Below are positions 12 through 45,987 of a stretch of DNA of 64,000 bases, one piece after another; position 1 is the first letter of the stretch; each line of letters starts with the position of its first letter. The DNA is from Flavobacteriales bacterium. GTDB lineage: Bacteria > Bacteroidota > Bacteroidia > Flavobacteriales_D > Sanyastnellaceae. Under the pieces are notes generated by a model. It was given only the letters and a program-made list of their open reading frames with translations. It was not told the DNA's origin and did not search any database. The stretch is taken from assembly GCA_015665315.1 (NCBI GenBank), contig JADFAK010000019.1:1-64000 (forward strand), given 5' to 3'. The position numbers and the translations under genes are program-made.

Positions 12-1115
12 CTAGGTTTCCTTAAAAAGGGTGAATTGTCCGCCCTTGGTGCGCAAGAAGATGTCCGTATTGAGCGGTGGCAATTCTCGTCCGCGAATAT
101 ACCTGCTCGAAGCAATTTTTACCATATTTCGAATCGAGTCGGCGACACTTCCTTGCCCCCTCATTCTGCTTCCCCATAAACTTTCATTTAGCTTGCCATT
201 GTGGGTTTGTTTAATGAGCATGAGTACTTTTTCGGCACGATCTGGAAAAGCCAGTCGCAACCAATCTTCAAAAATCGACGCTACTTCTCCGTTGAGTCTA
301 AGCATGATATAAGTAACCGTATTTGCTCCTGCTTCTCCTATGGTTTTCACGAGTTCAAACACTTCATGGCTGTTGATACCGGGAATTATAGGTGCCATGT
401 TGACGTTGACCGCAATTCCGTTTTCGGTAAGCGTGCGCAATGTAAGTAAGCGCTGTTTCACAGTGGCCGTTCGCGGCTCCATCTTTCTGCGTGTTTCCTC
501 CGACAGTGTGGTGATGGATAGTGTGACGCGCAACAATCCAAGCGCATTGAGCTCTTTGAGTAGATCTAGATCGCGAAGGATCAAACTATTTTTGGTGATA
601 ATCGACACCGGGTTTCTGTATTGAAGAAATACTTTTAGCAGCTCTCGAGTAATCTCCATCTTTCGTTCGATGGGCTGGTAGCAATCTGTATTTCCAGAAA
701 CCATCACGACCTGTGGCTCCCATTTTTTCGACTTAAACGCTTTGGCCAAAAGCAGGGGCGCGCTTGGTTTGTAAAGAATATTCGTTTCAAAATCTTTGCC
801 GGGTCCATATCCCCAATATTGATGGGAATTACGCGCGTAACAATACACGCACCCATGCTCACATCCTTGATATGGATTTATTGAATAGTCAAACGAGAGG
901 TCACTACTGGTGTTTTTACTGAGGATCGTTTTCGGAAAAACTTCAATGAAATTTGTTGTGTTCGACTCTATTTCTTCCTTTTCTTCATAGCAATAATTCT
1001 TGTACGCATCTTCCAGCACGTAGTTAGTTCGATTGAATTTATTATCGGGATTGCTTTGAGCTCCCCTGCCTTTCTCCAAATTCCTTTGCATCGCATCTAA
1101 CTTTCGATTTCCCAT
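12..1115 (-). CDS. PA0069-family radical SAM protein
   Basis: This 367-aa protein belongs to the radical SAM enzymes related to spore photoproduct lyase (SplB/PA0069 type). The sequence shows the [4Fe-4S] cluster motif CEHGCVYC (C-x3-C-x2-C) about 85 residues in, preceded by NPYQGC, as is typical of the family. The substrate of PA0069-type proteins is not established; similarity to SplB suggests nucleic-acid repair. It is the last gene of a minus-strand cluster dinB, SRAP, dnaE and radical SAM. Its start codon lies 19 nt inside the end of dnaE, so the two are translationally linked. The company of error-prone polymerases supports a role in DNA damage handling, which is inference. Confidence 0.9.
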   Translation of the reverse strand: MGNRKLDAMQRNLEKGRGAQSNPDNKFNRTNYVLEDAYKNYCYEEKEEIESNTTNFIEVFPKTILSKNTSSDLSFDYSINPYQGCEHGCVYCYARNSHQYWGYGPGKDFETNILYKPSAPLLLAKAFKSKKWEPQVVMVSGNTDCYQPIERKMEITRELLKVFLQYRNPVSIITKNSLILRDLDLLKELNALGLLRVTLSITTLSEETRRKMEPRTATVKQRLLTLRTLTENGIAVNVNMAPIIPGINSHEVFELVKTIGEAGANTVTYIMLRLNGEVASIFEDWLRLAFPDRAEKVLMLIKQTHNGKLNESLWGSRMRGQGSVADSIRNMVKIASSRYIRGRELPPLNTDIFLRTKGGQFTLFKET

Positions 1116-4100
1116 TGTCGAGAAGATTTTTCTACCTCTTGTGAGTGCCGTATGCGGGTTGTGGTGCGTGAGTCCGAGAATCGAGGATCTTCAATAATGT
1201 CCAACTTATGCATCGAAGTCGTTTCTATATTGATGCAATCGAACTCTTCGATAACCATTCCTTTGATGACATAAATTCCCCGTCCGCGAAATGGATACTG
1301 CTCGGCCACAGGAGGAAAATGAACTGTGTCCAACCACGCTCCTTTTAAATCCAAAAAAGTTCCGAAGTACATTCCTTTCCCATTGTGGGTTCTCGTATTC
1401 TTGATTGTTACCAGGTAACCAGCAATTTCTACTTCCTTGCCTATGTAGTTGGGTAAATCGGCAGCGAGTAATGTGGAGGGTTTTTCTTGGCGCAGGAGCG
1501 CAAATGGATCTTCCAGTGAAAATCCAAGCAACTCCAATTGATCAAAAACATCTTCTGCCAGTTCCGACGACAAGACAGGAAGTTCGAATGAGCGCGGCTG
1601 CTCGTAAAACAAAGTGAGTGATTGGTTGACCTTCTTCTTTGCCTTTCCCAGCAGGAAGTGTGATTGCCACAACAACTCTTTCTTTGTTTTTCCGCTGAAT
1701 CTAAATGCCCCAATGCGGACTAAAATTGCCAGTTGCTCTTGCGACAAATTTACCCTGCGGACAAAATCTACCAAGGACTCAAAAGGCCCTTCTTCCATCC
1801 TATTGGCTAAAAGCAACTCAATGGCATGGTGCTCTAGTTCCTTCACCAAACCCAATCCGAGAAAAATATCCTTTCCATATATGACCGTCTCGGCGCCCGA
1901 CCGATTCACGCATGGGGCTTCAATCGTCGCCCCATGCATTCGGGCTTCGTGAACATATAACTCTGTTCGATAGAATCCGCCGAAATTATTGATCGTGGCC
2001 ACCATGTATTCGAGTGGGTAGTAAGCTTTCAGGAATAAACTCTGGTAGCTCTCAACAGCATAGGAAGCCGAGTGTCCTTTGGCGAAGGCATAGCCGGCGA
2101 AACTTTCTATTTGTCTCCATATTTCATCCACCAATTTTGGTTCGTGCCCCTTCTCTTCTGCCTTTCTAAAAAATGCTTCTTGGGCCTTTTTAAATTCCTC
2201 TCTAGATCGAAATTTGCCCGACATACCCCGTCGCAATACATCGGCCTCCCCCATATCCAAACCAGCAAAGTAATGGGCTACCTTGATGACATCTTCCTGG
2301 TAAACCATCACACCAAAAGTCTCTGGCATGATATCTAATAAAATGGGGTGTGCGTCTTTTCGCCGCTCGGGAAATCTAAACCGTAGAATATACTCCCGCA
2401 TCATTCCACTCCTCGCAACCCCCGGCCTAATCACCGAACTGGCCGCCACCAAGCCCAAGTAGTCGTCCACCCGAAGCTTCCTCAATAACATTCTCATTGC
2501 GGGCGATTCCACGTAGAAACATCCGATAGCCTTAGCGTTACGAAGCATGTCTTTGATGCGTTCATCTTCCTTGAATCGCTTGATGTCGTGTATGTCGATA
2601 AGCTCTTCTTCAGGCCGATTGATTTTGACTATTTCCACGGCATCCTTGATCTTGCCCAGTCCGCGCTGACTAAGAATATCGAACTTGTACAGCCCCACAT
2701 CTTCGGCCACGACCATATCAAATTGGGTCGTGGGGTAACCTTTGGGAGGTAGAAATGTCGCCGTGAACGATGTGATAGGCGTGTCGGCAATGAGGATTCC
2801 TCCGGCGTGGACACTGAGGTGATTTGGGAATTCTTGGATGAGGGTGCTGTATTGCAATACCAACTTGGCCAATTGGTCTAGCTTCTCCATGCGGAAACGA
2901 CCCTTGGTGAGCACATCAATTTCATGTTTGGGCAGACCAAAAACTTTGCCCAGTTCGCGTACAACTGCCCGATACTGAAAAGTGCTATAGGTCGCAATGA
3001 GCGCAACATGCTCAAACCGATCGAAGATATAGCGTGTCACATCATCTCGATCGGTCCACGAAAAATCGAGGTCGAAATCAGGTGGATTCTTTCGATATAA
3101 ATTGATGAATCGCTCAAAATACAAGTCCAATTCAATGGGATCGACATCTGTAATACGAAGAATGTAAGCCACAACGCTGTTGGCCCCACTGCCCCGGCCG
3201 ACGTAGAAATATCCTTTGCTTCGGGCATAGGACGTAATGTCCCAATTGATGAGAAAGTAGGAAAGGAAATCTTTTTCGCGAATAATATTCAACTCCATCT
3301 TTACTCGCTCAAGTATCTTCTTGGTCGGTTTTGGATAGCGGTAGGCCATTCCCTCCTTGCACAGCTTCTCCAAGAGAAGGTAATCATCAACCTTGCTGGT
3401 CGTATAATACTGCAGGTTTTTATGTGGCTGCTCGGTGCCGAAAGTGAAGTGAATCGAACACTGACTGATTAGTCGATTGGTATTGTCAATAATCTCTGGA
3501 AAATCCTCAAAATGGGCACGCAGTTCCTCGGGCCGACTCATTAGGTGCCATGGTTTTCCTTCTTCAGACGTGGGAAGTTTACTTAGTAGTGTATTGTTGT
3601 CAATTGCTCTTAGTAAGCGGTGCGCATTGAAGTCCCTTTTATTGCGAAAACTCACCGTTTGTAAAATCACCATCTTGTGCGACATTCCCAACCATGGTGA
3701 TAACCTCAGCTGGGGAAGTTGTTCGCTATGAACCCCCACGAATTCATGGTCTTTCAAATCTTGTCCGCGATAAGACTGGAAGGGGTATACCACAAAAGCA
3801 TTTTCAAAATGGGGAGCGCGGCAGTCAAAAGCTTTGTGTCGATGAATATGCTCGCTCAGATGTTCATTGAGTTCGCGATAGCCCTCATTGTTTTTGGCAA
3901 TACCCACATACTTTTGATCTGCCCCATTTCGAAAATCGACACCTACTACTGGCCGAATATTTCGCTTCTCACTAAGCCGAACAAAATCGAGGCATGCCGA
4001 CGTATTATTGATATCGGTGAAAACCAATGACTCTAGGCCAAAACCAACAGCTAGGTCTAGCAGTTCAACGGGTTTGAAAGTCCCATATCGCAGAGAGTAA

Positions 4101-4123
4101 TATGAATGACAATTGAGGTACAA
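1097..4123 (-). CDS. dnaE2: Error-prone-type DNA polymerase III alpha subunit (short DnaE, DnaE2/ImuC-like)
   Basis: This 1008-aa C-family polymerase has an N-terminal PHP domain, a catalytic palm with the aspartate motif PPDFDLDF near residue 355, and a C-terminal OB-like segment. It is shorter than replicative DnaE (about 1150-1450 aa), which is typical of DnaE2/ImuC error-prone polymerases. In the PHP domain the first metal motif reads NCHSYYSL, so the usual HxH has lost its first His and the domain may not bind metal normally. It lies downstream of a Y-family polymerase and an SRAP gene on the same strand, 56 nt after SRAP. The expected role is translesion synthesis after DNA damage. The exact DnaE subclass is inferred from length and neighbours. 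Confidence 0.88.
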   Translation of the reverse strand: MYLNCHSYYSLRYGTFKPVELLDLAVGFGLESLVFTDINNTSACLDFVRLSEKRNIRPVVGVDFRNGADQKYVGIAKNNEGYRELNEHLSEHIHRHKAFDCRAPHFENAFVVYPFQSYRGQDLKDHEFVGVHSEQLPQLRLSPWLGMSHKMVILQTVSFRNKRDFNAHRLLRAIDNNTLLSKLPTSEEGKPWHLMSRPEELRAHFEDFPEIIDNTNRLISQCSIHFTFGTEQPHKNLQYYTTSKVDDYLLLEKLCKEGMAYRYPKPTKKILERVKMELNIIREKDFLSYFLINWDITSYARSKGYFYVGRGSGANSVVAYILRITDVDPIELDLYFERFINLYRKNPPDFDLDFSWTDRDDVTRYIFDRFEHVALIATYSTFQYRAVVRELGKVFGLPKHEIDVLTKGRFRMEKLDQLAKLVLQYSTLIQEFPNHLSVHAGGILIADTPITSFTATFLPPKGYPTTQFDMVVAEDVGLYKFDILSQRGLGKIKDAVEIVKINRPEEELIDIHDIKRFKEDERIKDMLRNAKAIGCFYVESPAMRMLLRKLRVDDYLGLVAASSVIRPGVARSGMMREYILRFRFPERRKDAHPILLDIMPETFGVMVYQEDVIKVAHYFAGLDMGEADVLRRGMSGKFRSREEFKKAQEAFFRKAEEKGHEPKLVDEIWRQIESFAGYAFAKGHSASYAVESYQSLFLKAYYPLEYMVATINNFGGFYRTELYVHEARMHGATIEAPCVNRSGAETVIYGKDIFLGLGLVKELEHHAIELLLANRMEEGPFESLVDFVRRVNLSQEQLAILVRIGAFRFSGKTKKELLWQSHFLLGKAKKKVNQSLTLFYEQPRSFELPVLSSELAEDVFDQLELLGFSLEDPFALLRQEKPSTLLAADLPNYIGKEVEIAGYLVTIKNTRTHNGKGMYFGTFLDLKGAWLDTVHFPPVAEQYPFRGRGIYVIKGMVIEEFDCINIETTSMHKLDIIEDPRFSDSRTTTRIRHSQEVEKSSRQWEIES

Positions 4124-4179
4124 AACGACGGATTTCGAAAGTGACTGCGCTGAATCATTTGCGCGAAGCGAGAAAAAAA

Positions 4180-5007
4180 TTAGAACAACTGCCCTTGTTC
4201 GCTTTCATCTTGTTTTCTCGTCCGCGCCCGCGACTCTCCCATTCCAAAGAGTTCAATCTCCTTGTAAATCTCAAATTCAAATTCCTTGTAGATTCTTTGG
4301 CCGACAGGCTCTAGGAGGTGCGACCCATTCAACCGAGGGTTCTTGATGTCGGAAGAAATTGGATAGGCATTTAGTCGCTCTGCTGGAAACGGCTTGAGCA
4401 TGGAAGTCACTTCTCCTAAAGGCAGACTAGGGTCGATCCAATTTTGCTCTTCATCGGGGGTTAAGATGACGGGAGATCGATGGTGTCCAATTCGGGTCAT
4501 TAGGTCGTTGGCTACTGTAGTTATGACCGCAAATGAGTTGATCACTTCGCCAGTAGTTTCATTGACCCAACTGTCCCAAATTCCCGCCATGGCAAAAGGG
4601 CGTTCTCCATTGCGGAGATAGACGACATAGGGTTTGTTGAGTTTCTCTTTTTTAGGTCCTTCAATAAAACAATCGGCCACGACCAAGCATCGTTGAGAGC
4701 GAATTGATTTTCGGAACATCGGTTTATTGATAATCCCTTTCTCTCCAGTATAGTTCGGGTCGTCTTGTTTGTTGTGATCCCCTTCAGCCCGAGCATTGAT
4801 CATGTAGAATTGCTTTTTGGCCCAGGCAGGAGTAAAACCAAACTGAAAAAATTGCAGGTCGTGCGGCTTGTCTCCTGTTATTACAGGAGCATACTCACCA
4901 TGTGAAATATTCGTGTTCGGCTCGTACAGTAGGGGCTGACTAGCTTGAACATTGAACCGTTTTTCAATGGCTTTAATCTTGGTTACCGTGGTATATCTTC
5001 CACACAT
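4180..5007 (-). CDS. SOS response-associated peptidase family (SRAP, YedK/HMCES-like)
   Basis: This 275-aa protein begins MCGRYT, so Cys2 becomes the N-terminal catalytic residue after Met removal. In the YedK/HMCES family this Cys forms a covalent crosslink with abasic sites in single-stranded DNA, shielding them from strand breakage. Other family signatures are NARAE in the middle and GHHRSPVI towards the C-terminus. The gene lies 72 nt downstream of dinB and 56 nt upstream of dnaE on the same strand, which fits a damage-tolerance operon: abasic-site protection combined with translesion polymerases. The C-terminal 45 residues are charged and probably disordered. Confidence 0.93.
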   Translation of the reverse strand: MCGRYTTVTKIKAIEKRFNVQASQPLLYEPNTNISHGEYAPVITGDKPHDLQFFQFGFTPAWAKKQFYMINARAEGDHNKQDDPNYTGEKGIINKPMFRKSIRSQRCLVVADCFIEGPKKEKLNKPYVVYLRNGERPFAMAGIWDSWVNETTGEVINSFAVITTVANDLMTRIGHHRSPVILTPDEEQNWIDPSLPLGEVTSMLKPFPAERLNAYPISSDIKNPRLNGSHLLEPVGQRIYKEFEFEIYKEIELFGMGESRARTRKQDESEQGQLF

Positions 5008-5079
5008 CGCTGATAATTTATGAATTATTACTGAATCATCTAATGGTCAAGCTGGTCGTTTTACGTTGATTTGGCCGAC

Positions 5080-6294
5080 TTACGATTTTCTATTTGCCAA
5101 TAGGATGGGCGGCTCTCCATTGAATGGATTTGGTCCGCCAATCGTTCTTGCCCCCATCCCCGCCGCTGAGACAATTGCCCGGTCGCCATAGCGTATTCTC
5201 ATGCGATCCATGGCTTGATAAAGATTGACCCGCTCTTCTGTATCGTCAAACAGATTAATTTGATAGCCTCCTCCAACAAGGTGACTAAACCTAACACCTA
5301 CTAATCGGACCAATAAACGCCTGTTGTACAGTTTATCGAATAGCTCCATAACTTGCGGAAAAAGGATGTGATCGGCCGAGGTATAGGGTATTCTTTTTTG
5401 AAGGGAGTAGGTATTGAAATCGGAGTACCGGATTCGAACCGTTACGCAGGCCGTTAATTTTTGCCCTCTTCGCAATTGAAATGCCAGGTTTTCTGCCATG
5501 GCCGCGAGAATTCCCTTCAACTTCCCGATGTCAATGGTGTCCCGTTCAAAGGTTCGTTCGGTGCTAATTGACTTCCGCTCGTTATACTGGACAACGGGAC
5601 TATTATCCAGTCCTCTAGCCTTTTTCCATATCATGATTCCATGCTTTCCCAGAACCGTCTCCATCAGCTCCATTGGCATCTCCTGAACCGTCTGCACAAC
5701 CTTAACCCCCAAGTGCCTGAGTGTCTGATAGGTTTTATCACCCACCATGGGGATTTTCTTTACCGACAACGGCGCTAGGAAGGGCATTTCCTCTCCTCTA
5801 CATACTTGGATTTCATTGTTCGGCTTAGCTTCACCAGTGGCTATTTTAGAAACTGTTTTGTTGTTGGACAAGCCAAATGAAATGGGCAATCCCGTCTCCC
5901 TAATTATCCGTTGTCTGAGCTCATGAGCAAACATCATACAACCATAAAACTTATCCATCCCACTTAAATCGGCATAGAACTCATCGATGGAGGACTTCTC
6001 ATAGAGCGGAACATGTTCTTTGACGATCTCTGTTACCATTTGAGAATATTTCATGTAGTTCGACGAGTTTCCTCGAATGACTATAGCCTCGGGGCATAGA
6101 TCTCGTGCAAGCTTCATGGGCATCGCTGAATGCACTCCAAAAGACCTCGCCTCATAACTGCATGAAGCTACCACACCACGGTCGCTCGTGCTTCCAATAA
6201 GAATAGGTAGATCTCTTAAACGGCTATCCATAAGCCGTTCCACCGAAACAAAGAATGTATCGAGATCCAAGTGCATGATTGATCTCTCCTGCAT
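5080..6294 (-). CDS. dinB: Y-family DNA polymerase (DNA polymerase IV, DinB)
   Basis: This 404-aa translesion polymerase shows the Y-family catalytic signatures: MHLDLDTFFVSVE near the N-terminus (metal-binding Asp), CSYEARSFGV in the fingers region, and SSIDEFYADLSG with the Asp-Glu pair of the active site. A little-finger domain follows in the last 150 residues. The first ATG is used; an alternative ATG lies six codons downstream, directly before the conserved core. It is the first gene of the four-gene minus-strand cluster ending at the radical SAM gene. Its upstream region carries repeated GCTAA/TTAGC sites shared with the promoter of the LexA-like regulator at 14.2 kb, pointing to damage-inducible control. 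Confidence 0.95.
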   Translation of the reverse strand: MQERSIMHLDLDTFFVSVERLMDSRLRDLPILIGSTSDRGVVASCSYEARSFGVHSAMPMKLARDLCPEAIVIRGNSSNYMKYSQMVTEIVKEHVPLYEKSSIDEFYADLSGMDKFYGCMMFAHELRQRIIRETGLPISFGLSNNKTVSKIATGEAKPNNEIQVCRGEEMPFLAPLSVKKIPMVGDKTYQTLRHLGVKVVQTVQEMPMELMETVLGKHGIMIWKKARGLDNSPVVQYNERKSISTERTFERDTIDIGKLKGILAAMAENLAFQLRRGQKLTACVTVRIRYSDFNTYSLQKRIPYTSADHILFPQVMELFDKLYNRRLLVRLVGVRFSHLVGGGYQINLFDDTEERVNLYQAMDRMRIRYGDRAIVSAAGMGARTIGGPNPFNGEPPILLANRKS

Positions 6295-6532: not shown

Positions 6533-6820
6533 CTAAATCGTCGATGTAGATCCACGTTGTGTATCACTGTCGTCTTCATCTTCATCATCATCCTCATCTG
6601 TAATACCGCCAGTATCATCGTCCTCATCGTCGTCATCCACATCATCGCCTCCACAGCCTGCCGCGGAATCGTCGTCAACATCCATATCATCACCATCTAA
6701 AGCACGGTAATCCAACTGCTCAACATCGCCAGCAGGGTCAATCACGTCCAACTTCGTACAGCCTGTAAACACCAAGGCCATAACGAACAAAAGGGTCAAT
6801 ATGTAGGTAATATTTTTCAT
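6533..6820 (-). CDS. Small Asp-rich lipoprotein
   Basis: This 95-aa protein starts at MKNITYI (an in-frame ATG six codons upstream lacks a signal peptide directly behind it). It has a lipoprotein signal peptide with lipobox FTGC, and a mature region of which roughly 40 percent is Asp or Glu, with runs of up to five acidic residues. Two Cys occur in AGCGGDD. It probably sits in an envelope membrane and could bind calcium or other cations. I recognise no domain. It lies 64 nt downstream of the propeller histidine kinase stop on the same strand and is closed by its own terminator, so it could be co-transcribed with the LytTR/kinase operon. Confidence 0.7.
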   Translation of the reverse strand: MKNITYILTLLFVMALVFTGCTKLDVIDPAGDVEQLDYRALDGDDMDVDDDSAAGCGGDDVDDDDEDDDTGGITDEDDDEDEDDSDTQRGSTSTI

Positions 6821-6884
6821 TCCAATATGAGGTTGCACTTCACAACACCAACAAATATAGTGAAGATCAGTCGGTTAACCAAAA

Positions 6885-9866
6885 TTAATTGGGGTAAATC
6901 TCATGAAAATTTATCGGTAAAATTATCTTCACTTCAGTACCCGAAACGGCATCATTCACATCACGAATCTCATACGGGCCGCGCAATTCAACGCGTTCAC
7001 CACACATCTTATTTAACAGTTCTATGCGGCCAGAAGTAATCGACATCCCTTGAGAAATATGACTTTCACTGGCTTGTTTATTCCTCAAACTTGTCTCAAT
7101 ACCTATACCGTTATCCGTGATTGTGAATTCGATACTACCATTTGAACGTGTTATACGGATCAATATTTCTCCGGGTTCCTCTTTTGGCAAAATACCATGC
7201 CAAATACTATTCTCCAAGAAGGGTTGAAGCAGCATAGCCGGGACTTTAATGCCGTCTTGATCAACATCTTCCCCAACCTCAACTTGGTAGGAAAACTTGT
7301 CTTGAAACCGCATATGTTCCAGGGTGAGATACAATTCCAATCGCTCTACTTCATCCCGCAAGGAGGTGAGATTAACTTGTGAGCTATCCAAGTTCTTTCG
7401 AATGAGTTTGGCAAAAGCCGACAAGTACTTATTGGCTGCTAATCGATCTTGCCGATTGATGTAATACTGAATAGAATTAAGAGCATTGAAAATAAAATGT
7501 CTGTTCATGCTGGAATTCAGGGTTTGTTGCTCAAGCAGCAGCATTTTCGAACGGTACTCGAATTTTTCCTTTTCCAACTTTGTTATCAGTTCTCTCTTGC
7601 GGCGTTGATACACCAACAAAACAAGTCCCACAGCCGCTCCAACACTCAGTAAAACAAACCACCAAGACAACCAAAATGGCGGGGCAATGCAAAAGCGAAA
7701 AGACACATCTTCACTCATAGACCCCGCCTTTCCCAGCGTCCTGACCTTGAACGTAAATTCATCAAACGGCAGGTTGGAATAGTTGGCAAAATTTGCCGTC
7801 GTCACAGGTTGCCAATCTCGATCAAAACCTTCCAACATGAATTGATATCTCACATCTTCAGGATAGGTCATGCTTATACCATCAAAGTAAAATGTGAAGT
7901 GGTTCTGATCATGGCTAACCTTGAGAAAATCCGGTAAGGATGCGCTCGATGAAAACTCCACATCCAAATCATCCCAGTTGGGGGTTTCCAAGTTAATTGC
8001 CAATGAAGTCAGATAAATACGGGGCTTGATCAGCTCAGGGCTTCGCACACCAGCATCCATATCAACTCGAACTAAGCCGTTGGCCGTTCCAAACCAGAAC
8101 TGGTTCTTGCTGTCCAAAAAAGTAGCATTCAAATTCGTTTCCAAATCGACCAATCCATCCTCTATCGTATAGTGATCAAAATGTAACTTGTCTATTTCCT
8201 GGCCAACAAAACACCTAAATAATCCATCATTACTTCCTATCCACATTTGATCATCGATGCTCTGAATAAAATTGACCAAAATATTCGCCTGTTCGCCAGG
8301 GGATACCGCGAGCCATTGATCCCCAACTAAAATACTCAAACCTCCACCTGTACCAGCCCAAATTCGTCCATAGGCATCAGAAGAAATACAATAAGTAGAC
8401 ATATCGGCTAGACCATCATCGGTCGTGTATTGTCGGACACCTTCTTTTCCAATTCGCCACACTCCCTGTTTACTCGCCACCCATAAGTCATCGTTTTTAT
8501 CGCTTGTAATTCCACGAGCTCTAACTCCTCGCAAGGCATCAATGCTTTTGAAATTAGTCGAAGACAAAGAGTCCAAATAATTAAGTCCAGTAGATGTTCC
8601 TACCCACAACCTGGCTTCTGAATCTTCATGTAGACATAATATCTTGGAGCTTAGTAATCCATTCTCTTTTCCAAGGGCCTCAAATTCTCCTCCAGAATAG
8701 CGCACTAAATTATTCGAAGAACCCAACCACATTTGCCCAGAGGAATCATACAAGCTGCTCCAAAATCGCTTGTTATTCGTGGTGTACTGGTCCAAATTAA
8801 AATGCTCAAATTTCCCCTCATACAATCGGCAAACTGCATTGTCGTAGCTGGCAAACCATAGCGCACCGACGGAGTCTTCAGCAACCGACATGATGGCCGA
8901 ACTACAGAGACCATCTTCCGCGGTGAAGGTCTCGAAATTATCGCCGACAAATTTTACCAAACCACCACCCTGTGTCGCGATCCAAATATTCCCTTCATCA
9001 TCTTCCAAGGTCTTACGAATATCATCGACTGGCAGACCACTATAGGTTGAATAATTCACCACTCGAGATCCCTTGAGTTTCGTGAGTCCGTGAATCGATG
9101 AGAGCCAAATATTGTTGTTGTGATCGACTAGCACATCCGCCATAGTTGAGCTGATGAGTCCGTCCAAGACTGAGTATTCTTTCACAACACCATCCTGAAT
9201 GGAAAGCAATCCGGGATTTTTACAAGCCACCCACAAGGTGCCCTCGGAATCATACTCGGCGTCAAACAGCACTGTTTCTTCCGTGACATGGTAGATTTCA
9301 TGAACCTGCATCCCTACCACTTCAAGGATGGCCTCGCGAGTAACCAAAACCCATTCCCCATCACTAGTCCTCAATATCTTCTTGATGTTTTGCTGAAAGC
9401 CCCCGTGGTCCGATTCAATGGGCACAAGGGTCTCCCCATCAAAGACCAACAATCCAGCATTGGTTCCTATCCACAAAAGTCCAGTGTCCAGTTGAACCAT
9501 GTCATTGACTTGGGCCTCTGCGAGAGATTCGGGAAATAGGAAGTTGAGAATTGTATCCTTTTGCAGGATCGAAATTCCCCCTCGAGTTCCGAATACTATT
9601 CGATTATCCTTGAGTTGACAGATGCTATTTATGTGCGTACCGAATAAGCCATCTTTGGCTGAATAATTTACAAACTCACGCCCATTGAACTGGCTAGCTC
9701 CACCAAGTGTGCCACACCAGAGATAGCCCTGTGCGTCCTGAAACACACATTGTACTTGAGATTGGGCCAGTCCGTCGGCACCCGTATATTGAATGAAACT
9801 GTATTTCTGAGCATTGACAGTTCCTCCAAGAAGTACTAGAAAGAAAAAAAGTGAGAGTATTCTCAT
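6885..9866 (-). CDS. Two-component sensor histidine kinase with periplasmic beta-propeller (Reg_prop / Y_Y_Y / LytS-type His_kinase)
   Basis: This 993-aa membrane sensor has a signal peptide (cleavage after VNAQ), many repeats of the two-component-propeller type (pattern D..G.lWiGT..Gl) over residues 20 to 640, a Y_Y_Y immunoglobulin-like domain near 650-730, one membrane helix near 740-765 and a short coiled coil. It ends with a PF06580-type kinase domain whose phospho-acceptor motif reads MNRHFIFNALNSIQ (Arg replaces the usual Pro) and an ATPase domain with N-box LENSIWH and DNGIGI. The ligand is unknown. The start codon overlaps the stop of the upstream LytTR regulator by one base (TAATG), so they are translationally coupled and presumably partners. 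Confidence 0.93.
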   Translation of the reverse strand: MRILSLFFFLVLLGGTVNAQKYSFIQYTGADGLAQSQVQCVFQDAQGYLWCGTLGGASQFNGREFVNYSAKDGLFGTHINSICQLKDNRIVFGTRGGISILQKDTILNFLFPESLAEAQVNDMVQLDTGLLWIGTNAGLLVFDGETLVPIESDHGGFQQNIKKILRTSDGEWVLVTREAILEVVGMQVHEIYHVTEETVLFDAEYDSEGTLWVACKNPGLLSIQDGVVKEYSVLDGLISSTMADVLVDHNNNIWLSSIHGLTKLKGSRVVNYSTYSGLPVDDIRKTLEDDEGNIWIATQGGGLVKFVGDNFETFTAEDGLCSSAIMSVAEDSVGALWFASYDNAVCRLYEGKFEHFNLDQYTTNNKRFWSSLYDSSGQMWLGSSNNLVRYSGGEFEALGKENGLLSSKILCLHEDSEARLWVGTSTGLNYLDSLSSTNFKSIDALRGVRARGITSDKNDDLWVASKQGVWRIGKEGVRQYTTDDGLADMSTYCISSDAYGRIWAGTGGGLSILVGDQWLAVSPGEQANILVNFIQSIDDQMWIGSNDGLFRCFVGQEIDKLHFDHYTIEDGLVDLETNLNATFLDSKNQFWFGTANGLVRVDMDAGVRSPELIKPRIYLTSLAINLETPNWDDLDVEFSSSASLPDFLKVSHDQNHFTFYFDGISMTYPEDVRYQFMLEGFDRDWQPVTTANFANYSNLPFDEFTFKVRTLGKAGSMSEDVSFRFCIAPPFWLSWWFVLLSVGAAVGLVLLVYQRRKRELITKLEKEKFEYRSKMLLLEQQTLNSSMNRHFIFNALNSIQYYINRQDRLAANKYLSAFAKLIRKNLDSSQVNLTSLRDEVERLELYLTLEHMRFQDKFSYQVEVGEDVDQDGIKVPAMLLQPFLENSIWHGILPKEEPGEILIRITRSNGSIEFTITDNGIGIETSLRNKQASESHISQGMSITSGRIELLNKMCGERVELRGPYEIRDVNDAVSGTEVKIILPINFHEIYPN

Positions 9867-10636
9867 TACATAGCGGCTAATCGATCGAGGAACGAAGGTA
9901 ACTTTCTCCTTGAAATAGGAATTTCAACTTCGTTGCTCATGATTGCCACGTTGCCTTCAGATCTCTTGAATTCTTTGAGATGATGGGCAATATTGATAAT
10001 GTGGGATTTATGCGTGCGAAAAAACATCTGATCACTCAACTTGTCCTCGTAAACTTTGATGGTTTTCGAACTTAAATATTTGCGATTCTCGGTGAGAAAA
10101 ATAGTTGTGTAACTCTCGCTTGCTTCTAGATGAATGATTTCCGAATTCTTGACTATGGCCATTCCATCGCGTGTAGGTATCGATGTCTTTTCAGAAGAAT
10201 TAGCCATAGCCATATTCTCCAGAATCTGCGTAATACGATCTTCACTTAGACCGCGTCCTGCTCGAGCCTTTTTGTGCTGAAGAGCCTTTTGAACTGCCAG
10301 TTGCAAATCTTCAATATTAATCGGCTTTTCAAGATAATCTATGGCGCTTTCTTTAATCGCTTTGAGGGCAAATTCATTATGAGCTGTAGTAAAAACAACC
10401 GCAAACTTCCGGTCCTCTACTTGCTGAAGGAATGAAAATCCATCTTCACCGGGCATCATGATGTCTAGAAAAACCAAATTAGGATTCAACTCATCCACAA
10501 GTTTTCTTGCTTCCGCCCCGCTTGTTGCCATGTCCATTACATTTACCTCAGGGCAAAACTCCTCGATCAGCATTTTCAAATTCTCTCGGGCAAACTGCTC
10601 GTCATCGACGATTATGGCATTGATCCTATCAGACAT
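9866..10636 (-). CDS. LytTR-family response regulator (partner of the propeller kinase)
   Basis: This 256-aa regulator has a receiver domain with acidic pocket DDE near residue 11 and phospho-acceptor Asp58 in VFLDIMMPG, followed by a LytTR DNA-binding domain in the last 100 residues (FFRTHKSHIIN is a LytTR signature). It is directly coupled to the histidine kinase gene downstream. Two perfect 16-bp direct repeats with a 21-bp period sit about 90 nt upstream of its start, matching the way LytTR proteins bind DNA, so autoregulation is likely. Confidence 0.94.
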   Translation of the reverse strand: MSDRINAIIVDDEQFARENLKMLIEEFCPEVNVMDMATSGAEARKLVDELNPNLVFLDIMMPGEDGFSFLQQVEDRKFAVVFTTAHNEFALKAIKESAIDYLEKPINIEDLQLAVQKALQHKKARAGRGLSEDRITQILENMAMANSSEKTSIPTRDGMAIVKNSEIIHLEASESYTTIFLTENRKYLSSKTIKVYEDKLSDQMFFRTHKSHIINIAHHLKEFKRSEGNVAIMSNEVEIPISRRKLPSFLDRLAAM

Positions 10637-10723
10637 AAGCTCAGAATTAAAGGATGAGTAATGCTGGAATTTAAAGAATTAACAGTCATCGAAAAGGGGC
10701 AAACCGATCAAAGCACCTGTTCA

Positions 10724-10760
10724 CGAAACCATCGGTAGTAAACGCGAAACCATCGGTAGT
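10724..10760. promoter_or_regulatory. Tandem 16-bp direct repeat, candidate LytTR binding site
   Basis: The sequence CGAAACCATCGGTAGT occurs at 10724-10739 and again, without mismatch, at 10745-10760. The centre-to-centre distance of 21 bp equals two helical turns, the spacing known for LytTR regulators such as AgrA and ComE. The pair lies between two LytTR regulator genes, upstream of the regulator/kinase operon. Which of the two proteins binds is unknown. Confidence 0.6.
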
Positions 10761-10762
10761 CT

Positions 10763-11554
10763 CTAGCCTAATTTTTTCGCTTGTGTCAGAAACTCACTCA
10801 ATCTAGCTCGTGCAATAGGCACACTGGAACCATCGGTCATTATGGCGAAATGCCCGTCTTGGCTAGAATACTCTTTGAGGTGATCTAGGTTCAGAATATG
10901 AGATTTATGAATTCGAATAAACCTTTCAGGATCCAACAAATCCTCGTACGTTTTCAACGTTTTTGTGTCGAGGTACTTGGATCCATCGACAAAGAAAAAA
11001 GCCGAACAACCGCCATCGGCCTCAAGTCGAACGATATCGACTGTGTTGATGATATTAAACCCTTTGCTGTGAAAAAGGGTGAGCTTAGCTGGCTTTCTTC
11101 GATCGAGCATGTTGGAAGTTAATTCCCGCATACTTTGCAAGTACAAGTTCAAGTTTGCGTCAGACTCGGCGAATGACTGCTGATAGTCCACCAACTTAGA
11201 AACGGCATACTGCAGATCCTCAATATCTATAGGTTTAAGCAAATAGTGAATTGCATTTGCGTTTAGCGCCTCAATCGCATAATCCTTAAACGCGGTAACA
11301 AAAACTACTTGGAAGGCCTTCTTCTCTATACTCTCCAAAAGCTCAAAACCTTCTGCACCGCTTGGCATGCGAATATCGAGAAACACAACTTGGGGACGGA
11401 GGGATTCTATTTTTTGTCGGGCTTCATCCACTCCACCTGCGACTCCAATGACCTCAATCTCGGGACAGAACTCCTCGAGCATGAACTTCAAGTTCTCTCG
11501 CGCAAGGGATTCGTCATCGACAATTAAAGCAGAAAGTCGTTTCCTAATTTCCAT
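10763..11554 (-). CDS. LytTR-family response regulator (second copy)
   Basis: This 263-aa protein has the same layout as the regulator at 9866-10636: a receiver domain with VDDE near residue 12 and Asp60 in VFLDIRMPS, and a C-terminal LytTR domain with FIRIHKSHILN. The two are clearly paralogous (both have ARENLK..LEEFCPE in the receiver). It stands 126 nt upstream of the other regulator and has no kinase directly next to it. It could act with the kinase at 6.9-9.9 kb or with the orphan propeller kinase at 25.8-28.9 kb; neither can be decided from sequence. Confidence 0.93.
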   Translation of the reverse strand: MEIRKRLSALIVDDESLARENLKFMLEEFCPEIEVIGVAGGVDEARQKIESLRPQVVFLDIRMPSGAEGFELLESIEKKAFQVVFVTAFKDYAIEALNANAIHYLLKPIDIEDLQYAVSKLVDYQQSFAESDANLNLYLQSMRELTSNMLDRRKPAKLTLFHSKGFNIINTVDIVRLEADGGCSAFFFVDGSKYLDTKTLKTYEDLLDPERFIRIHKSHILNLDHLKEYSSQDGHFAIMTDGSSVPIARARLSEFLTQAKKLG

Positions 11555-14098: not shown

Positions 14099-14186
14099 GA
14101 CCGTGGACGTTATATAGATAAGGGTAATGCAGGCGGACTGCTTCACAAAGTTAATCAAGAATCTCACATAGGGAATTGCGATGAAA

Positions 14187-14218
14187 GCTAATACTATTGG
14201 AATTATATTTAAATTAGC
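14187..14218 (+). promoter_or_regulatory. Candidate autoregulatory operator of the LexA-like regulator
   Basis: GCTAAT (14187-14192) and ATTAGC (14213-14218) form an inverted repeat with a 20-nt spacer that ends 4 nt before the chosen ATG. The right arm lies in TTAAATTAGC, identical to a site upstream of dinB. A -7-like TACTATTG begins at 14192, so a bound repressor would block initiation. Confidence 0.5.
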
Positions 14219-14222
14219 CTCA

Positions 14223-14996
14223 ATGAATTACTTGCCTACCAATCTCAAAGTCCTTCGAAAAGCGAGGAAGCTGACACAATCTGATCTTGCCGAAAAAATT
14301 GGCGTTAACAGAAGTGCCATTGGGGCTTATGAAGAAAGTCGGGCGGATCCACGGGTGCAGACATTGATACGGATTGGTCTGTTTTTCAAATTGAGTGTCG
14401 ACGACCTCTTAAACACAGATCTTCGTGTGTCGGCAGGAAAAAACTACGTGGCCGATCAGCTTCGCGTGCTTCCAATTATAGTGGATAGGGAAAGTGACCA
14501 AGAGTTGATTCCATTGATTCCCGAAAAAGCGGCGGCTGGTTATTTGAGCAATTACAACGATCCTGAATTTGTCGCCGACTTACCTCGTTTTCAATTGCCT
14601 TTTCCGCAACTGGCAGCAGACCGCACCTATCGCATGTTTCAGATTTCCGGAGAAAGCATGCTGCCCGTTCCATCTGGGGCCTACATTATATCGCAGTACA
14701 TAAGCTCTGTTGATGAGCTCAAAACCGGTGAATGTTACGTGTTTGTGACGCGGGAGGAAGGACTTGTATACAAGCGCTTGGAGAGCAAGGTAGACTCGAG
14801 CATCGTATTACAAAGTGATAATCCAGAATTCAAACCGTATTCCATCAACCACGATGCAGTGCTTGAAGTTTGGAAAGCACTTGGATACATCAGTTTTGAA
14901 TTGCCAGATTCGGGTACGTATCAGCCAGCCTTGCATGAGATATCGACGGCCATCAAAGGCATTCAAGCACAATTAAAAGAGAATAGCCGGAATTGA
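14223..14996 (+). CDS. LexA-like transcriptional regulator (XRE HTH + S24 self-cleaving protease domain)
   Basis: This 257-aa protein is counted from MNYLPTNL; an in-frame ATG at 14181 lies before the candidate operator and would add 14 unusual residues. Residues 5-62 are a Cro/XRE helix-turn-helix. The C-terminal half is an S24 peptidase fold: a possible self-cleavage site Ala105-Gly106 in EKAAAGY, nucleophile Ser145 in SGESM and general base Lys184 in VYKRL. The Ser-Lys spacing of 39 residues is close to that of LexA (37). It is therefore expected to be inactivated by RecA-stimulated self-cleavage after DNA damage. Shared promoter sites suggest that it represses itself and the dinB cassette. 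RecA dependence is inference. Confidence 0.88.
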   Translation: MNYLPTNLKVLRKARKLTQSDLAEKIGVNRSAIGAYEESRADPRVQTLIRIGLFFKLSVDDLLNTDLRVSAGKNYVADQLRVLPIIVDRESDQELIPLIPEKAAAGYLSNYNDPEFVADLPRFQLPFPQLAADRTYRMFQISGESMLPVPSGAYIISQYISSVDELKTGECYVFVTREEGLVYKRLESKVDSSIVLQSDNPEFKPYSINHDAVLEVWKALGYISFELPDSGTYQPALHEISTAIKGIQAQLKENSRN

Positions 14997-45594: not shown

Positions 45595-45987
45595 CTATTC
45601 AGGAATCCGTCTGTAGAACTCCTCTCCACCATAAATATCACCATCAACAGTAAATTCAAAAGTTTGGTCAATCCCTTTATGCCGTTTTATTTTCGAGCAG
45701 TCCTCTCCAGAAAATAAATACTTCCCAGAAACATATTTAGCGGCCTGTTCTCGTGTAGAGTTGTCATAAATTTTAACATCAAAACTGTCATCAGTAACTG
45801 GAAGAATCACGATTTCTTTATCACAGCCTTTGCACTTCCAAGAACCCACAAAGTCCGACTCTCTCGAATTACAACTCTCCGCCTTTTCCGAATTACAACT
45901 CTCCGCCTTTTCCGAATTACAACCGACAATTAGTAGCAACACAAAAAGAATCGGAAAGTAGACGCGTATTGCCGATGGATATGTCAT
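45595..45987 (-). CDS. Hypothetical lipoprotein with tandem Cys repeats
   Basis: This 130-aa protein has a lipoprotein signal with lipobox LIVGC. Directly after it comes an 8-residue repeat, CNSEKAES, twice and then a partial CNSRES; the encoding DNA is an exact 24-bp tandem repeat (45865-45888, 45889-45912). Because the lipobox Cys is part of the repeat unit, each copy restores a Cys. The rest has WKCKGCDKEI and looks like a beta-barrel lipocalin-type fold, but the family is not recognised. First gene of a two-gene unit. Confidence 0.6.
   Translation of the reverse strand: MTYPSAIRVYFPILFVLLLIVGCNSEKAESCNSEKAESCNSRESDFVGSWKCKGCDKEIVILPVTDDSFDVKIYDNSTREQAAKYVSGKYLFSGEDCSKIKRHKGIDQTFEFTVDGDIYGGEEFYRRIPE
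45865..45923. repeat. 24-bp tandem repeat inside the lipoprotein gene
   Basis: Two exact 24-bp units (45865-45888 and 45889-45912) and an 11-bp partial third copy (45913-45923) encode the repeated CNSEKAES octapeptide. The number is in frame, so slippage would change the length without breaking the gene. Confidence 0.85.

Follow-up and report, generated by a model that had tools for sequence, protein, structure and literature searches.

The window, a stretch of 64,000 nucleotides from a Flavobacteriales bacterium, encodes on its minus strand three co-directional genes: gene B (10763-11554), gene A (9866-10636) and a propeller kinase gene (6885-9866), whose start overlaps the end of gene A. 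Pfam analysis assigned Response_reg and LytTR domains to both B and its paralogue A, so that the genes on either side of the 126-nt gap between them both encode a LytTR DNA-binding domain. The kinase carries Reg_prop, Y_Y_Y and His_kinase (PF06580) domains. A solved-structure search with the LytTR domain of B returned one relative (3d6w, E 2.3e-05), and the best three matches shown for the whole protein were receiver domains. A His_kinase (PF06580) protein is encoded together with a receiver-LytTR response regulator, as in LytS/LytTR two-component systems. The locus was not assigned to the LytTR Regulatory System (LRS) class, because the partner is a Reg_prop/Y_Y_Y/His_kinase protein and not a membrane inhibitor. 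Pairs of a LytTR regulator and a propeller kinase are numerous in Bacteroidetes; in the genome that contains the window, a search with A gave 34 matches, which need not all be LytTR proteins or linked to a kinase. Downstream of the kinase gene, positions 6533-6838 encode a small Asp-rich, lipoprotein-like protein without a Pfam match.

The gap between B and A contains an exact 16-bp word, CGAAACCATCGGTAGT, in two copies at 10724-10760 with a start-to-start period of 21 bp. The preliminary description had given the same coordinates and had placed the repeats ahead of a regulator/propeller-kinase operon, and the gene order and Pfam domains bear this out. Both copies read ACTACCGATGGTTTCG on the minus strand, match exactly and align with the conserved ladder described below. 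The promoter-distal copy lies at 10745-10760 (core ACCGATGGT, 10749-10757) and the promoter-proximal copy at 10724-10739 (same core, 10728-10736). The 5' copy starts 2 nt past the stop codon of gene B, and the 3' copy ends 87 nt ahead of the ATG of gene A, the first gene of the putatively controlled operon. In five first-order Markov simulations of the window, the longest exact direct repeat within 100 bp was at most 12 bp, as against the 16 bp observed.

The window holds one longer close repeat, at 45865-45923 (period 24, 35 bp exact), inside a reading frame. This frame (45595-45987, minus strand) is lipoprotein-like and repeats CNSEKAES, beginning with the apparent lipobox cysteine; the mature N-terminus would therefore carry copies of its own start. 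Elsewhere in the window, positions 1097-6294 encode DNA polymerase III alpha, SRAP and Y-family polymerase genes (Pfam), as found in induced-mutagenesis cassettes; we take the DNA polymerase III alpha to be DnaE2-like from its size and context. On the same contig, positions 14181-14996 encode a regulator with a helix-turn-helix and an S24 peptidase, a LexA/CI-like make-up.

Conservation of the repeats and their promoter register

A match to A was present in all of 60 scanned genomes, the window's own among them. A scan for contigs of named genomes with an A alignment gave 80 loci, to which the window and a same-genus relative (G001) were added. Regulators were sorted into A and B by tblastn and kept at an identity of at least 44%; weaker matches were dropped, which left out L095 and L112. 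The retained set comprised 35 A genes that follow B (tandem), 23 that stand alone and 56 B genes; some A start codons are uncertain (e.g. L071, L087). In a tree of 124 proteins, from which proteins shorter than 200 aa had been dropped, the A clade comprised 59/59 A proteins (support 0.857) and the B clade 55/55 B proteins (support 0.99), and ten other LytTR-like regulators fell apart from both. The compared genomes are nearly all MAGs, and related genomes were counted as independent.

To obtain the period test, EM analysis and held-out test described here, near-duplicate gaps were removed (35 to 33). A self-match analysis of these 33 non-redundant Flavobacteriales B-to-A gaps, made with no motif assumed, gave 296 at a period of 21, the best among periods 12-45. 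Other periods gave 209.2 +/- 7.5, a period of 42 came second with 240, and 200 shuffles reached at most 230. EM analysis of the gaps identified a paired half-site motif, ACCGTTYAATCA, which scored 490.5 at a spacing of 21 and 307.5 at 17, the next best. With a held-out motif model, 31/33 gaps, including that of the window, reached p <= 0.01 (L049 and L093 missed it), and 32/33 scored better at 21 than at six other nearby spacings. A period of 21 topped all four sets of regions, but outside the B-to-A gaps it did so weakly and within the shuffle range: 148 against 136.0 +/- 4.4 for A alone (shuffles up to 153; L067 and L076 included), 233 against 219.3 +/- 5.4 for B in tandem (up to 235), and 160 against 145.9 +/- 4.2 for B alone (up to 163).

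Some loci have three copies, as in G001, where AACCGTTCA, TACCGTTGG and TACCGATCA follow one another in successive 21-bp steps. At the place expected for the third copy (10707-10715, minus strand), the window reads TGCTTTGAT, with no recognisable copy (score -8.8, versus 3.4 in G001). Perfect identity over 16 bp is peculiar to the window genome; what is conserved among its relatives is roughly 10 bp of core, repeated every 21 bp. The identity of the window copies, whereas those of relatives differ, is what a recent functionless tandem duplication of 21 bp would leave behind. Against such an origin stand the held-out conservation of the same period in 31/33 gaps and the promoter register described below, and we regard it as highly improbable.

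The window pair has the format of a LytTR operator, with a 9-bp core and a 12-bp spacer; the format used for comparison was two repeats of 9-11 nt separated by 11-13 nt, as given in the available sections of PMC4847170. Flavobacterial sigma-A promoters have a -7 box, TANNTTTG, at -12 to -5 (PMC9723704, available sections). We examined its position relative to the repeats with all 35 gaps, near-duplicates retained. The pair score was at least 14 in 33 of these, which are a different set from the 33 non-redundant gaps; these score counts and the register come from a model trained on the same gaps, the held-out version being the 31/33 test. A -7 box matching 5/6 letters lay in phase with the ladder in 18/33 model-positive gaps, compared with 3.12 +/- 1.71 (maximum 11) in 1000 shuffles. 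At 16/33 loci, a distance of 41-43 or 62-63 bp separated the box from the beginning of the best pair's second core; in L044 and L052 an in-phase box was present at 20 bp only. With a 19-nt spacer, a distance of 41-42 bp leaves 9-10 bp between the half-site and a hypothetical -33 element, which comes near the 10 bp that LytTR operons elsewhere are reported to have (PMC6193735, available sections).

In the window, the candidate -7 box is TAAATTCC (10666-10673, minus strand). It is weak, matching 4/6 letters, and its position is the main argument for it: the start of the proximal core is 63 bp away, so that the window pair is one 21-bp step farther from its box than the 41-43 bp of many relatives. 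From this distance and the 4/6 match, the third half-site may have decayed in the window genome. A scan for sigma-70 promoters, which are not expected in Bacteroidetes, found none. The register seen in relatives suggests that the operator sits just upstream of a putative internal promoter for A and the propeller kinase.

The location of the repeats between co-directional genes would also suit an RNA element of the intergenic B-A transcript, be it a hairpin, a terminator or a riboswitch. The fold of the gap is not unusual (z = 0.49), and the gap contains no terminator-like site and no Rfam match at gathering score, which makes this explanation very unlikely. The geometry, the conservation at the orthologous place and the register of the -7 box instead uphold the proposal of the preliminary description that the repeats resemble a LytTR operator. 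They are probably such an operator, conserved at the orthologous spot in many relatives.

Position alone does not give the sign of regulation. Polymerase could be blocked by a ladder with as many as three half-sites, and the operator might repress the A/kinase promoter or set a pulse rather than activate it. However, the half-sites lie upstream of the hypothetical -33 element, 41-43 or 62-63 bp from the -7 box as found at the 16/33 loci, and this position is the one published for LytTR activators (PMC6193735 and PMC4227749, available sections). Repression is therefore an improbable reading, and activation is preferred.

Distribution of the site in genomes with and without B

The two paralogues that flank the repeats could both be the binder. 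The site lies directly before A, and promoter-adjacent repeats with autoregulation are a documented LytTR pattern (PMC6193735, available sections); it might then be an autoregulatory operator of A, in positive feedback with its kinase as in other LytTR operons. We searched all 23 A-alone genomes for B, and scored B as undetected when the best match was A itself. Since nearly all the genomes are MAGs, an undetected B may reflect incompleteness. Only two of the 23 A-alone loci (L067 and L076) had a pair scoring at least 14. None of the 21 A genes in genomes without a detected B had such a pair (0/21), and a kinase match was still present beside A in 15/21. De novo analysis of 17 non-redundant A-alone loci without B revealed no preference for a spacing of 21 (80, versus 91 at 20 and 84 at 24).

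An unlinked B was found in four genomes (L067, L076, G050 and G038), and all four proteins belong to the B clade. The site before A scored 14.4, 21.4, 14.8 and 9.2 in these genomes, respectively; in G038 and G050 the repeats had already been noticed by eye prior to the B search there. The site was thus present before A in 3/4 genomes with an unlinked B and in 0/21 with no B detected (Fisher ~0.002, related genomes counted as independent). Of the unlinked B genes themselves, L194 and L200 are preceded by a reversed site (13.7 and 16.7), and L195 and L196 by none.

We then compared the regions upstream of B. In tandem loci, no pair scoring at least 14 was found there (0/32, after upstream regions of 60 nt or shorter had been dropped, 34 to 32), and de novo analysis again showed no preference for 21; B would therefore not regulate itself in these loci. 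The 22 B-only loci include nine from Crocinitomicaceae, Fluviicola or Crocinitomix. A was absent from 13/13 B-only genomes searched (best match 37-40% identity). De novo EM of 20 non-redundant B-only loci preferred a spacing of 21 (192, versus 139 at 22; EM without a shuffle control) and yielded a motif similar to that of the gaps, ACAGTTTAATAA, with variants such as ACCGTTTAATAA. It is the weaker of the two, because only 1/22 B-only loci (L097) reached a score of 14 with the gap-trained model. The best pairs lay on the strand opposite to B in 19/20 loci, some of them weak. Reversed LytTR-like pairs about 100-160 bp before B were seen in L099, L104, L105, L108, L111, L114 and L115. The nearest upstream open frame is co-directional with B in 20/22 B-only loci; the reversed site would therefore most simply serve B's own promoter.

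Cross-genome co-occurrence with the site points to B as the binder. Autoregulation by A is unlikely, though somewhat less so than repression: the 21/21 A genes without a detected B lack the site, 15/21 of them with a kinase match still alongside, and B-only genomes without A retain a similar motif. The site may nevertheless serve A, or both A and B. The suggestion that the repeats provide a motif valid for the sensor family as a whole did not hold up, since the site tracks the B lineage and is missing before the 21/21 A genes in genomes without a detected B.

Taking B as the proposed binder, the operator would consist of two half-sites in head-to-tail orientation, placed two helical turns apart, with the core ACCGATGGT at this locus and ACCGTTYAATCA across the family. 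Phosphorylated B would bind them on one face of the helix, just upstream of the internal promoter, and recruit RNA polymerase, leading to more of the A/kinase pair. One LytTR regulator would in this way control the operon of its paralogue. We put the probability of this reading, a LytTR operator read by B that activates the internal promoter of A and the propeller kinase in a two-step relay, at roughly 75%. The binding of DNA, the identity of the binder, activation over repression and the dependence on phosphorylation are all parts of it that we infer.

Further targets and comparison with known LytTR systems

To search for other copies, we scanned the assembly of the window genome (99.27% complete). 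The 16-bp word occurred nowhere else in it with zero or one mismatch; at two mismatches it matched six other places, and so did the backward control. With no further close copies in the assembly, a mobile repeat was rejected. With a relaxed pair pattern, there were 181 matches at period 21, against 193 at 24, 184 at 18 and 93 for the backward control; because periods 24 and 18 match as often, the excess over the control reflects composition and not a regulon, and a wider regulon in this genome was rejected. Zero-mismatch pairs numbered two at period 21, one at 24 and none at 18; the two at period 21 are the window site and C1:55993-56021, which is internal to an open frame of 406 aa. Of the 181 relaxed matches, 29 other places were examined as loci: the pair falls at an open-frame start in L139 and L153 and within an open frame in all the others. 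The L139 and L153 pairs (locus positions 1501-1529; C39:4396-4424 and C2:66397-66425) are period-21 relaxed pairs with 1 and 2 mismatches and may be weak targets or chance matches. A single-unit pattern with the CTCAATCAAAG spacer was found at 14 places in the genome, versus 20 in the control.

In 16 relatives, the strict pair at zero to one mismatch occurred once each in 7, always as the sequence of the known gap. At two mismatches it matched three places, two of them known gaps; the third, G062:C37:24103-24131 (L175), belongs to the same genome as L077 and lies outside the B-A gap. At three or fewer mismatches, there were 58 matches in the 16 relatives, compared with 91 in the backward control. 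The preliminary description had named a lack of other copies, together with no binding by either regulator, as grounds for refutation. The scan found no other convincing copies, but the lone copy does not refute a function, because the site is conserved across species. As no convincing wider regulon appeared here or in the 16 relatives, the site is likely to be a dedicated local switch, on a scan in which weak sites elsewhere would be missed. We consider it slightly more probable than its opposite that the A/kinase internal promoter is the only detectable conserved target of B, with a ladder of two to three half-sites at 21-bp spacing kept across Flavobacteriales, and that B genes without A have a similar reversed ladder before B.

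Published LytTR sites have geometry and core in common with the window site (PMC6193735, PMC4847170 and PMC4227749; here and below, statements on these papers refer to their available sections). In the LRS of Streptococcus mutans (HdrRM/BrsRM), there are direct repeats such as ACCACTTAT-12 bp-ACCGCTTAT, with a 21-bp period as here; they lie at the regulator's operon, upstream of the -35 element by 4-11 bp in S. mutans and in most other cases by 10 bp, and binding of HdrR to them was shown by EMSA (PMC6193735). In LRS loci the partner of the LytTR regulator is a membrane inhibitor, in contrast to the full response regulators and propeller histidine kinase found here, and the LRS regulator controls its own operon, whereas in the present case control of the next operon seems to come from the upstream paralogue. 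LRS-like operons of Bacteroides, also Bacteroidetes, have predicted repeats that precede, by 11 bp, a promoter whose -7 box is TATCTTTG (PMC6193735, Table 3). Unlike the present site, these are 11-bp repeats of the TCCGGTATTCA type with an 11-bp spacer (22-bp period), and they are associated with membrane-spanning regulators and other genes.

The YpdB/yhjX and YehT/yjiY pairs of Escherichia coli resemble the present case in having LytTR response regulators and tandem repeats; the YehT probe from yjiY contains ACCGCTTA and ACCACTCA, 21 bp apart (PMC4847170). YpdB has a single direct target gene, which encodes a putative transporter, whereas the putative target here is another LytTR regulator with its kinase. 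AgrA of Staphylococcus aureus, also a LytTR regulator, binds a pair of direct repeats that lie upstream of the promoters P2 and P3 (PMC4227749); unlike here, it is part of the agr system, its host is Gram-positive, and the promoters are of the sigma-70 type (-35/-10). The regulator described in the available sections of PMC6222199 is of the OmpR family. Searches of open-licence PMC papers turned up no study of LytTR targets in Flavobacteriales or beside propeller kinases. This geometry is already established for LytTR sites, and the relay wiring from B to A, as read from the genomes, would be the new part.

For one regulator lineage, the site provides a motif that is defined, a promoter and a likely binder. 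The same approach, following a site across genomes that hold just one of two paralogues, allows a binder to be assigned from sequence only.
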